Below, piece after piece: positions 1 to 33,337 of a stretch of 33,337 bases of DNA. Both the position numbers and the translations under genes were made by a program. The notes under the pieces are model-generated. The model saw only the letters and a program-made list of their open reading frames with translations. It was not told the origin of the DNA and ran no database searches. How positions within the stretch are numbered: position 1 is the stretch's first letter; each line of letters opens with the position of its first letter. This DNA is from a virus: IMG/VR virus record IMGVR_UViG_3300046167_000430, positions 1 to 33,337 of that record, one strand, 5' to 3'.

Positions 1-297
1 ATATACACTGCACCCCTCGAAAAAATTAGGGGGGGGCTTCTCGATTTCGTGGTATTTTTGCAACACTGTTGTATTTTTGCAACGTGACATTTATATCACA
101 GTCAATACCTAATCCGCATTGTCTGTTGAATTTGTCAATTGCGCGACGCCATCATCAATAGGCTCAGCGTCGATTACATCACCCTTAACCTTGCTTGCCT
201 TTAGCGCGGCAGATACACCCGCAAGCGCGGTTGATAGTGAGTCGCCAGTCTCAACCTTCACATCTAATGTATCGGCCTTGGGCAATAGGGCTGACAT
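1..297. repeat. Terminal redundancy, left copy
   Basis: This stretch is repeated at the right end of the window (33039-33337). The first 194 bases are identical. The last hundred differ by four substitutions (near 195, 232, 253, 292) and two single-base insertions in the right copy (near 212 and 279). The simplest reading is a circular, or circularly permuted, molecule assembled slightly past its start, with poorer base quality at one end. A true direct terminal repeat is possible, but the uneven divergence argues against it. Confidence 0.9.
52..83. repeat. Two 13-bp direct repeats, 19-bp spacing
   Basis: GTATTTTTGCAAC occurs at 52-64 and again, exactly, at 71-83. The repeats lie just beyond the terS stop codon in the terS-terL gap, on the far side of the iteron array. 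A 19-bp offset puts the copies on roughly the same DNA face within two helical turns, as expected for a protein-binding pair. The binder is unknown; terminase, the HTH initiator or a host protein are all possible. A small hairpin-capable CCCCT/AGGGG pair lies at 13-32. Confidence 0.6.
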
Positions 298-484
298 TGC
301 GCGAATAGGTCCCGTTCACATCTCGTTCAAGCGCGTCAGCCAATAGCACATCTAATGATTTGCCCCTTGCATCCAACTCTGAAAGCGCGCCAGTGAAGCC
401 ACGGTGAAGCTTACTTATAATATCCTTACCGTATCCAGTGCCAGCAGGACGCCCAACCTTTTTCTTAACAACATTTTTCGCCAC
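109..484 (-). CDS. Small terminase subunit-like protein, frameshifted
   Basis: Two overlapping minus-strand frames join into one 124-residue protein if one base is removed from the CCC run near 309-311. The joined frame then reads from ALERDVNGT through IRAMSALLPKA. The N-terminus is basic (KKKVGRPAGTG), followed by an alpha-helical region with the phrase DARGKSLDVLL and an acidic tail, a layout I associate with small terminase or DNA-packaging proteins of marine phages. The start is GTG at 484. On the circle it lies directly upstream of the large terminase, the usual terS-terL order. The C-terminal part is present a second time at the right end of the window. The break is probably a sequencing error. 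Assignment as terS rests on size, composition and position, not on a diagnostic motif. Confidence 0.6.
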
Positions 485-3419: not shown

Positions 3420-3884
3420 TTATGATACGGACTTTGCTAAATCTGTCCAGTCCATTGGCTTCTTTTCTTCATCATCTTCTTTTGTCTTTGCCTTAATAGA
3501 AGAAGAAGATTTAACTGATTTATTATTATGGTTTATTATGGGGGTGACACTGTGACTATGGGGGGGCGTCTGTGTGACTATAGGGGTAGTCACTGTGACC
3601 ATAGCCCCCTCCGCCGCTTTTAGGTCTACAGAATACAGCGTGGAAGTTTGCGAGCCGTTTGGTCTGGTGCGTTCTTCTGTTGTCATAAGCCCCATATCAA
3701 CCAGCATCGCAACCTTGCGCGATATGGTGCGCTTGGCTAGGCCAGTCAATTCGTTTATGCGAGACAGAGAAGGGAAAGCCTTTCCATCATTGTCGGCGTG
3801 GTGGCAAATTGCCAGCAACACCAGCTTCGCGCTGGAGTCACTGATGGGCTGTTTAAACGCCCAATCTGTTGCGTTATAGCTCAT
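3420..3884 (-). CDS. HTH replication-initiator-like protein carrying iterons
   Basis: A 154-residue protein, start ATG 3884 after GGAAGGGGAAGGC, overlapping the end of the upstream nuclease gene. Residues 1-85 form a winged-helix domain of the HTH_36/phage replication-protein type: a YNATDWAFKQPI opening, helix HHADNDGKAFPSLSRIN, recognition segment LAKRTISRKVAMLVDMGLM. Residues 95-114 are a Thr/Pro/His linker encoded by three 22-bp iterons, followed by Asn/Ser/Lys-rich sequence over AT-rich DNA. This is the arrangement of lambda O, whose gene contains ori. No polymerase or helicase is encoded, so it likely recruits the host replisome. A transcription-factor role is the alternative. Confidence 0.7.
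   Translation of the reverse strand: MSYNATDWAFKQPISDSSAKLVLLAICHHADNDGKAFPSLSRINELTGLAKRTISRKVAMLVDMGLMTTEERTRPNGSQTSTLYSVDLKAAEGAMVTVTTPIVTQTPPHSHSVTPIINHNNKSVKSSSSIKAKTKEDDEEKKPMDWTDLAKSVS
3544..3602 (-). repeat. Intragenic iteron array (3 units)
   Basis: Read on the minus strand, three units begin at 3601, 3580 and 3558 (spacing 21 and 22): TGGTCACAGTGACTACCCC, TAGTCACACAGACGCCCCCC and TAGTCACAGTGTCACCCCC. Each is a six-base arm, three bases, an imperfect inverted arm, then a C-run. They match the four iterons at 32803-32890 in length, core and C-run. Directly beyond them, about 3518-3543, comes AT-rich sequence with ATAATAAACC and ATAATAATAAATC, a likely unwinding element. Confidence 0.7.
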
Positions 3885-4330: not shown

Positions 4331-5067
4331 ATCAGCCACTCCCTCTCATATCTCATAATCGTATGCCCTATTGCTTCCGCGATTTGTGGGACGATTGCGT
4401 TTCCGAGTGCTTTAAGGCGGTGTGATTGATTGGGAATCCCATTAACCACTCGACAAACATCGGGTTCAGCGGGCCAGCTTTCGAGCCCGGCTCCAGCCCC
4501 TCCTCCCTGTAAACTTGAGCTGTCAAAGCGCTGTCTCTCCGAAACTCCGCTGGCGACCCCCTCTCTTGCGATAGGTGAGCTGTTGGAGTTAGCCACAATC
4601 CAGACCCTATCTCGTTTATGCGGGGCATCGACACCGCAAGCTGGAATAACAAACGTCCAGACGGCGTAGCCCTCACCCTCCAGTGCCGAGAGAACCTCGT
4701 CGAGGCCGAGTTTAATGTGTCCACCAACATTCTCGCAAATGACCCATCGTGGCCGTAACTCTCGTATAAGTCGATGCACTTCAGGCCAGAGATGTCTTGG
4801 GTCTTGTTCACCCTTTCTATTTCCCGCTGTGCTGAATGGTTGGCACGGGTAGCCACCAACGATGACAGAGGGAACAATTCCATCTGCCTTAAGTTGCTCT
4901 CCAGTGAGTTGTTTGACATCACCGTAGATTGGTGTGTCTGGCCAATGGCGTTCGAGGACGCCTCGGCAGTACGGTTCAATCTCGCAGAATGCGACTGTTT
5001 CAAATCCGAATTTTTCGAGTCCAATGCTAAATCCTCCTATACCACTAAATAAATCTAATACTTTCAT
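4327..5067 (-). CDS. DNA cytosine-C5 methyltransferase
   Basis: A 246-residue protein, start ATG 5067 (MKVLDLFSGIGGF), overlapping the upstream nuclease as ATGA. Motif I is at residues 1-17, motif IV GGYPCQPFSTAG at 71-82 with catalytic C75, motif VI ENV at 112-114, motif VIII HKRDRVW at 150-156, and motif X RLKALGNAIVPQ at 217-228. It transfers methyl from S-adenosylmethionine to cytosine C5. The target-recognition region between motifs VIII and X is only about 60 residues, shorter than in typical 300-400-residue enzymes, so specificity cannot be inferred. It is likely protective against host restriction; the two neighbouring nucleases do not look like its cognate restriction enzyme. A long second frame overlaps it. 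Confidence 0.93.
   Translation of the reverse strand: MKVLDLFSGIGGFSIGLEKFGFETVAFCEIEPYCRGVLERHWPDTPIYGDVKQLTGEQLKADGIVPSVIVGGYPCQPFSTAGNRKGEQDPRHLWPEVHRLIRELRPRWVICENVGGHIKLGLDEVLSALEGEGYAVWTFVIPACGVDAPHKRDRVWIVANSNSSPIAREGVASGVSERQRFDSSSLQGGGAGAGLESWPAEPDVCRVVNGIPNQSHRLKALGNAIVPQIAEAIGHTIMRYEREWLI
4368..5024 (-). CDS. Overlapping ORF within the methyltransferase, 218 aa
   Basis: An uninterrupted 218-codon frame lies on the same strand as the methyltransferase, shifted in phase and almost wholly inside it. Its second half reads TPSGRLLFQLAVSMPR, then GLWLTPTAHLSQERG, and ends with PLNPMFVEWLMGFPINH. I recall phrases of this kind (W-x-TP-x-A, LNPxWVEWLMGxP) in companion or overlapping ORFs of many phage C5 methyltransferases, which suggests a true dual-coded or widely conserved product rather than a random shadow. 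There is no clear ribosome-binding site at 5024, and expression is unproven. It may be only a by-product of conserved methyltransferase motifs. Confidence 0.4.
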   Translation of the reverse strand: MDSKNSDLKQSHSARLNRTAEASSNAIGQTHQSTVMSNNSLESNLRQMELFPLSSLVATRANHSAQREIERVNKTQDISGLKCIDLYESYGHDGSFARMLVDTLNSASTRFSRHWRVRATPSGRLLFQLAVSMPRINEIGSGLWLTPTAHLSQERGSPAEFRRDSALTAQVYREEGLEPGSKAGPLNPMFVEWLMGFPINHTALKHSETQSSHKSRKQ

Positions 5068-5486
5068 ATCAACCACTCCCGCATGATTGCTAGACCGACC
5101 TCCAAGTCACAGGTCAAAGGCATGACTGCATTGCCCTCGGTGGGCCAACTAAATTGGTCGCTATCAGACGCCCAATCTGAGTTGACTGCATACATTGGCA
5201 CGGTCACACGGATAGGCTGGCGGTCATATTTCCAAATCAAAACAGGGATTGCCTCAGCTTTGGCGGCGGCGCGTTTAGCCTGAACCCACCAATCCTTTGC
5301 AAACCAGTTGCCTGACTTGTAGCGTTTACACTCGACCAAAAACGGCTCTAGGAAAATGTCTCCAAGGTCAGCGTCTTGATATTGAGATAAGTTGCGCTTC
5401 AAGTCATCTACGCCAAATTCTTCGCGCAATATCTTCACGCAAGAATTTTCAAAATTGTGTCCTTTATTGCGCGAGAGCTTCGACAT
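5064..5486 (-). CDS. PD-(D/E)XK endonuclease, Holliday-resolvase-like
   Basis: A 140-residue protein with the compact PD-(D/E)XK pattern: N-terminal KGHNFEN (E13), YQDADLGDIFLEPFLVECKRY with D43 and E52-C-K54, then a Trp/Gln helix WWVQAKRAAAKAE and a PVLIWKY strand. This layout is shared by archaeal-type Holliday junction resolvases and phage resolvase-like enzymes. Start ATG 5486 is preferred (GGAT seven bases upstream); ATG 5495 is possible. It overlaps the end of the regulator gene by 23 bases and the methyltransferase by ATGA. It probably cuts branched intermediates during recombination or before packaging. A restriction-type role cannot be excluded. Confidence 0.7.
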   Translation of the reverse strand: MSKLSRNKGHNFENSCVKILREEFGVDDLKRNLSQYQDADLGDIFLEPFLVECKRYKSGNWFAKDWWVQAKRAAAKAEAIPVLIWKYDRQPIRVTVPMYAVNSDWASDSDQFSWPTEGNAVMPLTCDLEVGLAIMREWLI

Positions 5487-7690: not shown

Positions 7691-8035
7691 ATGAGTGGGA
7701 CAGCTTTCAAGTGCGGACGATGCGATGGGTCAGGTGTCTTGCTCATCAATGTTTCCAGTGACGGGGAGGGTGGGAGCTTCATCGAGAAGCCCTGCCCGAC
7801 CTGCGACGGGAGAGGTATCTTGACTAAAGCAGAATTGATGACGCAGGAGGCGGATTACACACTGGAGGAAAACCAGTTTCTACCAATGCCACTGACGGGC
7901 GCGTTTCGCGTTTATGTGGACGGTGTTGTGTATCAGCGCAAAATGACTGCAAGACAGCTACGCAGATTGGCCCAATACGCCTTGAACGTGGCAATCGAAA
8001 CCGAACAATACGAAGGGGAAAAAGATGGAAATTAA
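7691..8035 (+). CDS. DnaJ-type zinc-finger protein, 114 aa
   Basis: The 114-residue protein has two C-x2-C-x-G-x-G motifs, CGRCDGSG (residues 8-15) and CPTCDGRG (35-42), as in the cysteine-rich zinc domain of DnaJ, where pairs of such repeats hold one zinc. DnaJ has four; this has two and no J domain. The C-terminal part (ARQLRRLAQYALNVAIETEQ) is a basic-then-acidic helix. Start ATG 7691 follows GGGAGACAG. Phage proteins of this type are common in replication blocks, and their role is unknown; binding an unfolded or replication protein is an inference. Confidence 0.75.
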   Translation: MSGTAFKCGRCDGSGVLLINVSSDGEGGSFIEKPCPTCDGRGILTKAELMTQEADYTLEENQFLPMPLTGAFRVYVDGVVYQRKMTARQLRRLAQYALNVAIETEQYEGEKDGN

Positions 8036-8495
8036 TATCAACGTAGATGTGAACCTAGAGACCGAAATCGAGAACGTGGCGCTGACATCAATCATTGATG
8101 CTGTGTCTGAGGTCTTTCTCGTGCCGAAGCGTGAGCTTCTAAATCACCAGCGACCAGCCTACTTAACACAAGCTAGGTTTGCGGTGTATTATCTCGGCTG
8201 GCTTGTTACCAAGCGTAGCCTTCCGAGCATCGGGCGATTCATGGATAGAGACCACACCACCATCTTGCACGGGCGCAACAGGGCTATAGAAATTATGCGT
8301 GAGAATAAGCAATACAAAGAGAAGGTGGAGCTTGCTCGTGAAATAGCCTTCGAGATACAAAGAAAGAAAATGCAAGATGTCAAAAGAATATCAGACGAAA
8401 TCAAACAACAAGTGCTTGAGCGAACAATCGCCGCAAACACTGTCGGAGAAGGCGTTGCTACAGGAACTGCTTTTGTGGAAGCGGAAGGCTCTTAA
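8025..8495 (+). CDS. DnaA domain IV-like DNA-binding protein
   Basis: A 156-residue protein, ATG 8025 after AAGGGGAAAAAG. Residues 22-95 match the DNA-binding domain IV of DnaA: ALTSIIDAVSEVFLVPKREL, then ARFAVYYLGWLVTKRSLPSI and the signature GRFMDRDHTTILHG (70-83). The AAA+ domain is absent. Domain IV recognises DnaA boxes in host origins, so the product could bind phage or host DnaA boxes, compete with host DnaA or guide the phage origin. The last 35 residues look less natural and overlap another frame from 8377, so a frameshift near 8400 is possible. Confidence 0.85.
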   Translation: MEININVDVNLETEIENVALTSIIDAVSEVFLVPKRELLNHQRPAYLTQARFAVYYLGWLVTKRSLPSIGRFMDRDHTTILHGRNRAIEIMRENKQYKEKVELAREIAFEIQRKKMQDVKRISDEIKQQVLERTIAANTVGEGVATGTAFVEAEGS

Positions 8496-31010: not shown

Positions 31011-31243
31011 TAGGCGTCTCCGTAAATTCCGTCTTCAGTGACCTTGATGGAGCGCACTCTCATCATGTAGTCATCTGGGTGCATGTCCGCTTCTTGGGCG
31101 CAGAAGGCAGAGGCAAGCAGGCATGTGTCAATCAACTCGTCCCAATCTTGTCCCTGCTCAGAGAGTTGAAAAAGCACAAGGGCCAGCATCTCAAATGCTG
31201 TGTCTTCGATTGGCTCTCCGTCGAAAGTGGTTAGACTATCCAT
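31010..31243 (-). CDS. Small acidic protein after terL, 77 aa
   Basis: Not recognised. An acidic helical protein (EPIEDTAFEMLALVLFQLSE, DWDELIDTCLLASAFCAQEA) with a short beta tail. It overlaps the terL end by 13 bases, with its start inside the terL C-terminus, which implies coupling. It could be a packaging accessory, from position only. Confidence 0.65.
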   Translation of the reverse strand: MDSLTTFDGEPIEDTAFEMLALVLFQLSEQGQDWDELIDTCLLASAFCAQEADMHPDDYMMRVRSIKVTEDGIYGDA

Positions 31244-32628
31244 TTTTGTGACCCATAACTAAGTTTCGAGTTCCACTTGTGCTTGCTTCCGCTAGTGGCA
31301 ATACTAGCACGAGAAGCAAAGGTAAGGCAAAAGGCATCTGCAAGGTCGGGACTGTTCAACCCGCGCCGTTTCATCTCATCTTTTCCTTCTACTTTCAGCT
31401 TACCATTAGATAGGAAAGAAAATCTAGGCTTAGATAGGTCTTCAATAAGTTCTTCTTGGAGGGGTATTGTGCAGTCGCGCATCTCAAACCACTCTTTACC
31501 GAGGAACCACAGTTCATCACGCAAGCGGCCATAACGCTCTCCCATGGAGGCGGACTCTGCTACGTTTATACCACGAACAGGTAGGTCAAGCTCTGTGAGT
31601 CTATCGACAACACCAGCGCCAAGCCCAATGCTATCAACAAGGATTTCAACAGGCCTATCTGCCCATGTGGTTGTTTCATATTCATTTAGGATAATCCCGC
31701 ACATTTCCATCAAATCTTTATTACGCCACGATTTGATAGGCTCAGTTACCACATTACCCTTTCTCTTGCAAAGGGCAGATTTATCAGTGCCAAATCGCGC
31801 CACGTCGAGACCCCATACAACGGGTGTCGTCTCGGCAGGTACTTGCTCGCGCTCGGCGGCGGACTGCAAAAGGTGTAACGGAATGACCACGTCATCGTCA
31901 GCCTCAGGCCACTCACCCAAAACACGCACACGGAAGATATTGCTATCCTCCCCATATTTTATTTTCATGTCTTCGATGAACTTCGGCCCAACCTGCGTAC
32001 TATCCTGCGAGGCAACCTTCATTGTGTAGAAGCTATCTCTCATTTTATTGAAGGCTTCGTAGAAGTAGCCAGATGTACGGGTGGGGTTTCCTGTCATCAC
32101 AGTCTTAGCACCCTCTGTAGACATAGCACCCTCACCAACCTCAAAGATGATGTCATCAACGCCTGATGCCTCATCTACGAGAAACAACATATTGGGGCTG
32201 TGAAATCCCTGCAACGCCTCTGGTGTCTCACGACGAGCAGTACGGGCAACCGCGAAGCTATCTTGACCAGTAAGTTCTACCTTTGCAGACGTTACCTCGA
32301 TAAGCTCCTTCAATCCTTCAGGCATACGACGATGCCATTTGGCAACCTCGGCCCACAAGATGTCGGATAGCTGACTAGCAGTGTTGGCAGTGCAAGCAAT
32401 ACGGGAAGGGGAACGGGTTAGAACCCACCACAGTATGAGCCAAGATAGAAATGCAGTCTTACCGATACCGTGTCCAGACCGAATAGCCACCCTGTCATTG
32501 TCACGCACAGCATAAAGTGCCTCTCTTTGCCATTTCTCTGGTTTGGCGTCCAACACGCCCTCTACGAATAAAACGGGGTCTAGCGCGATTGCCAGCAAAA
32601 GCTCCCCAACGTCATTTTCCTCTGCCAT
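31231..32628 (-). CDS. terL: Terminase large subunit
   Basis: A 465-residue protein, ATG 32628 after AAAGGAAAGAG. ATPase: Walker A SGHGIGKT (51-58), Walker B MLFLVDEAS (147-155), coupling motif VMTGNPTRTSG (about 177-187). Nuclease: GLDVARFGTDKS with its Asp, LVDSIGLGAGVVD and NSPDLADAF near the end, the RNase H-like acidic set. It powers DNA translocation and cuts the concatemer. The small subunit lies upstream across the circle junction. The type (headful or cos) cannot be read from the sequence alone. Confidence 0.95.
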   Translation of the reverse strand: MAEENDVGELLLAIALDPVLFVEGVLDAKPEKWQREALYAVRDNDRVAIRSGHGIGKTAFLSWLILWWVLTRSPSRIACTANTASQLSDILWAEVAKWHRRMPEGLKELIEVTSAKVELTGQDSFAVARTARRETPEALQGFHSPNMLFLVDEASGVDDIIFEVGEGAMSTEGAKTVMTGNPTRTSGYFYEAFNKMRDSFYTMKVASQDSTQVGPKFIEDMKIKYGEDSNIFRVRVLGEWPEADDDVVIPLHLLQSAAEREQVPAETTPVVWGLDVARFGTDKSALCKRKGNVVTEPIKSWRNKDLMEMCGIILNEYETTTWADRPVEILVDSIGLGAGVVDRLTELDLPVRGINVAESASMGERYGRLRDELWFLGKEWFEMRDCTIPLQEELIEDLSKPRFSFLSNGKLKVEGKDEMKRRGLNSPDLADAFCLTFASRASIATSGSKHKWNSKLSYGSQKWIV

Positions 32629-32690: not shown

Positions 32691-32696
32691 GTTCAG

Positions 32697-32741
32697 GAGC
32701 GCCTAAGGAGGAGTGCGCTCGACCGAATATGTTTACTCCTC
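32697..32741 (-). promoter_or_regulatory. Possible H-type pseudoknot
   Basis: GAGCGC (32697-32702) can pair with GCGCTC (32715-32720). The loop between them contains GAGGAGT (32708-32714), which is complementary to ACTCCTC (32735-32741). The interleaved order and the directly adjacent stems (714/715) are those of an H-type pseudoknot or of two competing hairpins. Confidence 0.4.
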
Positions 32742-32750
32742 TGGATGCAG

Positions 32751-32778
32751 TTTATACATGATTTGAACCCCTCCGCAA
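32751..32778 (-). promoter_or_regulatory. Candidate terL promoter
   Basis: Minus strand: TTGCGG (32778-32773), 16 bases, TATAAA (32756-32751). It lies between the iterons and the terL leader structures, so initiator binding to the iterons could influence late transcription. Confidence 0.45.
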
Positions 32779-32802
32779 TACGATACAGATAACACACCCC
32801 TA

Positions 32803-32890
32803 TAGTCATGGTGACTATGCCCCCTAGTCAGTGTGACTACCCCCCATAGTCATGGTGACTACCCCCCATAGTCAGGCTGTCTACCCCTTA
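32803..32890 (+). repeat. Intergenic iteron array (4 units of 22 bp)
   Basis: Units start at 32803, 32825, 32847 and 32869, exactly 22 bases apart. Each has TAGTCA, three variable bases, TGACTA (TGTCTA in the fourth) and a C-run. Units 1-3 are imperfect palindromes, TAGTCA-N3-TGACTA. The strict period of two helical turns puts all sites on one face of DNA. The same sequence occurs in the initiator gene at 3544-3602. Confidence 0.85.
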
Positions 32891-32935
32891 ATAAGTAAAC
32901 TAATAAGTAAGTTAATAAGTCATTTAATAGGGCGG
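32888..32935 (+). repeat. AT-rich 12-bp direct repeats (3-4 units)
   Basis: Directly beside the iterons: TTAATAAGTAAA (32888), CTAATAAGTAAG (32900), TTAATAAGTCAT (32912) and a decayed TTAATAGGGC (32924), with an exact 12-base period. Regular AT-rich short repeats next to iterons are the classical form of a DNA unwinding element. Confidence 0.75.
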
Positions 32936-33038
32936 GTCTAAAAAATATAAAAAAATTTTTAGTGGGGGCATAGGTGGCGTTTAGAAAGATGAGGGGGGGG
33001 GTAATGAAATAAGGGTCACGTTATTTGGATTGTTATAT

Positions 33039-33337
33039 ATATACACTGCACCCCTCGAAAAAATTAGGGGGGGGCTTCTCGATTTCGTGGTATTTTTGCA
33101 ACACTGTTGTATTTTTGCAACGTGACATTTATATCACAGTCAATACCTAATCCGCATTGTCTGTTGAATTTGTCAATTGCGCGACGCCATCATCAATAGG
33201 CTCAGCGTCGATTACATCACCCTTAACCTTGCCTGCCTTTAGCGCGGCAGGATACACCCGCAAGCGCGGTCGATAGTGAGTCGCCAGTCTCCACCTTCAC
33301 ATCTAATGTATCGGCCTTTGGGCAATAGGGCCGACAT
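33039..33337. repeat. Terminal redundancy, right copy (with partial terS)
   Basis: Repeats bases 1-297 with four substitutions and two extra bases, all in the last 105 bases. The inserted G near 33251 and T near 33319 both break the terS reading frame that the left copy keeps open here, so the left copy is the better sequence for this part. Bases 33147-33337 hold the C-terminal half of the terS-like gene on the minus strand. Confidence 0.9.

Follow-up and report, generated by a model that had tools for sequence, protein, structure and literature searches.

In SPP1, the initiator G38P serves two distant origins, oriL and oriR, each composed of direct repeats and an AT-rich unwinding element, one of them lying inside the initiator gene and the other in an intergenic region of the late genes (PMC6316719, PMC3485210). 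G38P bound at oriR has been proposed to act as a roadblock for the replication fork (PMC3485210, PMC6316719). In ori-lambda, the iterons and the AT-rich tract are embedded centrally in the gene of the initiator (PMC7466680).

The DNA analyzed here (hereafter the window) is the whole of a 33,337-base virus record from a marine phage. Its ends overlap imperfectly (1–299 versus 33039–33337), which implies a circular or permuted genome of about 33.04 kb. A module of iterons and AT-rich repeats occupies the intergenic region (the gap) between the gene for the terminase large subunit, TerL, and the small ORF preceding it, and its iterons recur inside the gene of an O-like replication initiator, Rep. 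In satellite phage P4, crr is likewise a second iteron-bearing cis element, located several kb from ori and bound by the same initiator; the window resembles P4 in having a second iteron array kilobases away, and differs from it in the initiator, alpha being a primase–helicase–initiator unrelated to Rep.

Two copies of an iteron module

Four 22-bp iterons with exact spacing, directly joined to AT-rich 12-bp repeats, were described in the original prediction. These repeats stand far above shuffled sequence: the gap contains 35 pairs of near-identical 13-mers, as compared to a mean of 0.46 and a maximum of 4 after shuffling. The position given for the module also proved right, the first unit running from 32797 when the C-tract is counted. 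The iterons follow one another at exactly 22, 22 and 22 bp, and their cores are imperfect palindromes reading AGTCATGGTGACT, AGTCAGTGTGACT, AGTCATGGTGACT and then a degenerate AGTCAGGCTGTCT. They are followed without interruption by TTAATAAGTAAAC-TAATAAGTAAGT-TAATAAGTCATT, i.e. 3.5 copies of a 12-bp period. With at most one mismatch, AGTCANNNTGACT has five matches (0.99 expected), four of which lie in the gap. When duplex stability was ranked from nearest-neighbor energies over the whole genome, the AT block of the gap came out as the least stable 42-mer (-41.8 kcal/mol versus a mean of -58.4, sd 4.2).

Table 1. Coordinates of the features discussed in the text
Feature	Position	Strand	Basis or details
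Presumed terminase small subunit	109–484	-	position only; frameshift within the ORF in this record
Rep, O-like replication initiator (HTH_36 winged helix and disordered tail)	3420–3884	-	PHROG 1032/270/8540/391, PF13730, AlphaFold model
AT-rich block behind the rep iterons	3494–3535	-	fourth least stable 42-mer of the genome
Three rep-internal iterons of the gap type	3544–3607	-	at 3544, 3566, 3587; spacing 21–22 bp
TerL, terminase large subunit	31231–32628	-	PHROG 2, PF03237
Leader RNA pseudoknot between promoter and TerL	32693–32741	-	pair counts
Putative TerL promoter	32751–32778	-	TTGCGG -35 at 32773–32778, 16 bp, TATAAA -10 at 32751–32756; inspection only
Four 22-bp iterons of the gap module	32797–32887	+	starts 32797, 32819, 32841, 32863; cores 32804–32816, 32826–32838, 32848–32860, 32870–32882
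AT-rich 12-bp direct repeats (putative unwinding element)	32888–32929	+	repeat period, duplex stability
Extra A/T tract beyond the 12-mers	32937–32962	+	sequence inspection

When the whole window was searched with a matrix derived from the gap iterons alone, the top seven matches were the four iterons themselves and three sites in rep, which form the only other cluster of the motif in the genome. The PHROGs matched by Rep are replication-initiation families, and its residues 1–92 are modeled by AlphaFold with high confidence as a winged helix, the top PDB match of the model being the N-terminal domain of DnaD (a weak match, E 1.4e-3). Rep is about half as long as lambda O, and its tail is short and disordered. 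We propose that Rep is the iteron-binding protein.

The rep-internal copy has the layout of ori-lambda, with iterons and an AT-rich tract inside the gene of an O-like, HTH_36 initiator, and the imperfect-palindromic iterons fit a dimeric initiator. The phage differs from lambda in the 12-bp repeats of the AT block and in having an extra complete copy outside the initiator gene, in the intergenic region before TerL. In this respect it resembles SPP1: two distant sites carry matching direct repeats, each beside an AT-rich element, and the covariation with the DNA-binding domain of Rep described below suggests that one initiator would serve both. It differs from SPP1 in its initiator, Rep being a short O-like winged-helix protein from a different phage lineage. 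Moreover, about 3.7 kb of the circle separate the putative second origin, which directly precedes TerL, from the first (about 13 kb in SPP1), and many specificity types co-switch here at both sites. The original prediction treated a shared protein that links replication to packaging as undescribed; G38P, with oriL and oriR, already has an own-gene and a late-region origin, so the idea is not unprecedented. Literature searches brought up no relevant description of a phage in which a second iteron origin is located at the terminase.

The original prediction placed the module in a terS–terL gap. TerL is borne out by family matches, and the small ORF is presumed to encode TerS from its position: no family was matched in a PHROG/Pfam-type profile comparison, and its homologues gave no credible hit either. 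The frameshift in the small ORF, like the few base differences between the two copies of the terminal overlap, is likely assembly noise at the contig ends.

Array and Rep types in related phages

The search of the genome and of relatives suggested in the original prediction found the motif again in rep and the module at the same place in related phages. Indeed, in a comparison of TerL homologues, the module lies upstream of TerL in nearly all relatives with >86% TerL identity. The iteron sequence differs by lineage, and among the sequences that contain both rep and gap, the gap array of each phage, L027 excepted, matches the iterons of its own rep: AGTCA...TGACT in the window and L070, CGGCA...TGCC in L020, L065, L068 and L101 (type B), GGGCA in L103, L015, L016 and L121, GACA...TGTC in L011 and L014, TGACA in L025, and GTCTC...GAGAC in L028, L029 and L106. 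With eight types, the true rep–gap pairing was the single best of 40,320 permutations, and with nine types it was reached by none of 200,000 random permutations, as was also the case with ten genomes including the mismatched L027, although these numbers overstate independence, given the relatedness of the genomes and the fragmentary state of most of them. A search outside the gap with the gap iterons placed the best match in rep for 12 of 13 loci, rep making up 2–12% of the sequence searched. By pattern search, the gap arrays of L028–L033 have three sites each, the total reaching seven in L028 as well as in L029, and several genomes have one more iteron beyond the AT block, in both copies. L019 was not counted as lacking rep, its contig beginning downstream of the expected rep position.

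The AT-rich repeats also match between the gap and rep copies within genomes, only 9 of 100,000 permutations reaching the observed sum when the AT segments had been bounded by hand beforehand. For instance, ACCAGTCA is present in both copies of L028 and ATAAGTCA in both copies of its near relative L029, while L025 has AGAACTAGTAACTTAA in the gap and rep copies alike. Such matching may mean that one machinery melts both modules, or may result from gene conversion between the copies.

The type of the gap array varies with the DNA-binding domain of Rep (Mantel r = 0.66, p = 0.0002; 0.82 without L027) and shows no significant correlation with the presumed TerS (r = 0.12, p = 0.14). L065 and L070 have TerS proteins that are 97% identical, and different arrays and Reps, whereas L068 and L065, like L028 and L029, share array and Rep type with TerS proteins that are about 30% identical. 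Furthermore, residue X of the (V/I)-X-RK motif in the recognition helix of Rep tracks the iteron half-site: Q goes with CGGCA or CGACA, R with GGGCA, S or T with AGTCA, Y with GTCTC and H with TGACA. The Rep of L103, which is 94% identical to the type-B Rep over the first 85 residues, has Q replaced by R at this position, and its iteron is GGGCA instead of CGGCA; L015 and L016 likewise combine R with GGGCA. Since the array type follows Rep and not TerS, and since residue X tracks the half-site, dependence on Rep is the best reading of the array; from this sequence covariation, we infer that one protein, Rep, binds both the gap and the rep sites directly. The specificity of the gap array does not follow the presumed small terminase, as it should at a cos or pac site.

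L027 is the exception (926–1414 and 4880–5320): its Rep is of the TGACA type and its gap array of the CGGCA type, with a TerS identical to that of L068. It is either a natural recombinant or an assembly chimera.

The presumed TerS occurs in several divergent versions (about 30% identity) in L028, L029, L031, L065, L068 and L101, and these reassort freely against Rep and array type. A separate observation concerns the promoter-proximal end of the array: the type-B gap arrays and the gap of L027 have there an element, GGGGTGACAATCTGAC, of another iteron type than the rest, the corresponding odd-type element of L103 being GGGGTGACAGAATGTCA. These elements may be relics or sites for another protein.

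Two array-free relatives covered by a long contig or by much upstream sequence, L041 and L044, showed no HTH_36 protein, and both still keep the small ORF and TerL. A distant phage, C72C1 (TerL 58%), has an initiator with internal iterons and no second cluster; a second copy is therefore not needed for such replication in general. Taken together, these cases make the second copy look like a gain within this lineage.

A probable second origin and other possible roles for the gap array

The gap feature is probably a second, complete copy of the Rep-dependent replication origin of the phage, in the style of oriL and oriR. The presence of the module, its conservation at this site, the match between the copies, the co-switching with Rep and the instability of the AT block are established by the sequence, and the switching of the array together with the rep iterons and the recognition helix of Rep supports the origin proposed in the original prediction. 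Its guess that a binding protein is shared also gains support, since both sites switch together with Rep. In the mechanism that we infer, Rep would bind each imperfect-palindromic iteron as a dimer and form a nucleoprotein complex over the array, whereupon the abutting AT-rich 12-mers would melt and let the helicase load. With a first origin copy of the same layout inside rep, the copy between the small ORF and TerL might function as an ordinary origin or else, as a late origin or a block to forks, trigger the switch to concatemers. Against a second origin stand the L027 mismatch, the silence of GC skew and C72C1, with its internal cluster only.

The gap array might instead not be fired at all, and Rep bound there could form a roadblock or control site that stalls the fork and triggers the theta-to-sigma switch to concatemers, or that titrates or handcuffs Rep. 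We regard this as possible, if rather less than probable: SPP1 provides a precedent in the fork block proposed for G38P at oriR (PMC3485210, PMC6316719), the array has a late-gene position beside TerL, and the AT blocks of the two copies face each other in most genomes. On the other hand, the AT-rich 12-mers are conserved and matched together with the iterons, which a pure binding site would not need, and rep does not keep one orientation with respect to TerL, being inverted in L011, L015 and L016. An operator function, in which Rep would repress or activate late transcription from upstream of the TerL promoter, accounts for the fact that about 19 bp separate the array from the TTGCGG/TATAAA promoter in the window and that the array lies right upstream of comparable boxes in most relatives. 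It is nevertheless unlikely, because the array of L015 and L016 is located beside the small ORF, about 600–700 bp from TerL, with other sequence in between and the promoter retained, because promoter boxes occur without an array in L035, L037 and L040–L045, and because matched AT-rich 12-mers would serve no need. L121 carries the same sites as L015 and L016, its array also lying away from the TerL promoter. The separation of array and TerL in L015 and L016 indicates that the array need not keep a fixed distance from the TerL promoter.

Direct repeats are typical of cos and pac binding sites, and the array lies between the presumed TerS gene and the TerL gene, as would suit a cosB- or pac-like packaging site bound by the small terminase, the alternative offered in the original prediction. 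This role is highly improbable for the iterons, given that the presumed TerS varies independently of array type, that L041 and L044 keep the small ORF and TerL without HTH_36 Rep or array, and that the sole other cluster of the motif is inside rep; besides, it is a presumption that the small ORF encodes TerS at all.

If the gap feature is indeed a second origin, Rep bound before TerL could couple replication to packaging physically and temporally, by stalling or re-firing replication at the packaging locus and by gating the TerL promoter or its pseudoknot leader. This link between replication and packaging is a hypothesis, and one that we hold to be quite doubtful; were it true, a single specificity-switching protein would govern replication as well as the start of packaging, and the iteron type would exclude rival phages from both. 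The second-origin reading would in itself extend the dual-origin layout, for which SPP1 is the best-studied case, to an environmental phage lineage that looks unrelated, with at least nine natural initiator/iteron specificities and both origins switching together. Initiator–DNA recognition becomes readable from sequence in this lineage, one recognition-helix position tracking the iteron half-site, and the system is a tractable one in which to study why a second origin is retained next to the packaging genes.

Other signals in the window and the TerL leader

GC skew, named in the original prediction as a check, was rejected as origin evidence: it follows gene direction and, being confounded by gene orientation, neither supports the proposed origin nor moves it elsewhere. 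The product of another gene in the window (8025–8495, plus strand) has the C-terminal DNA-binding domain of DnaA (PF08299, E 4.7e-15). Host DnaA boxes gave one match in the window versus 3.4 expected, near neither module and without any cluster, so this protein could not be tied to the origin. A search for a prophage or host via TerL in sequenced genomes yielded only 33% and 46% matches.

The TerL leaders of the window and of L005–L071 contain a conserved, covarying H-type RNA pseudoknot, formed by GAGGAG/CTCCTC and CGG..GAGCGC/GCGCTC..CCG. No Rfam family was found in the window. Paired cells make up 95.3% over 20 leaders, and 16 changes are double-sided, as compared to 50–70% pairing in slid controls. 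For the CUCCUCCUU arm, pairing with the ribosome-binding site of TerL is also conceivable.
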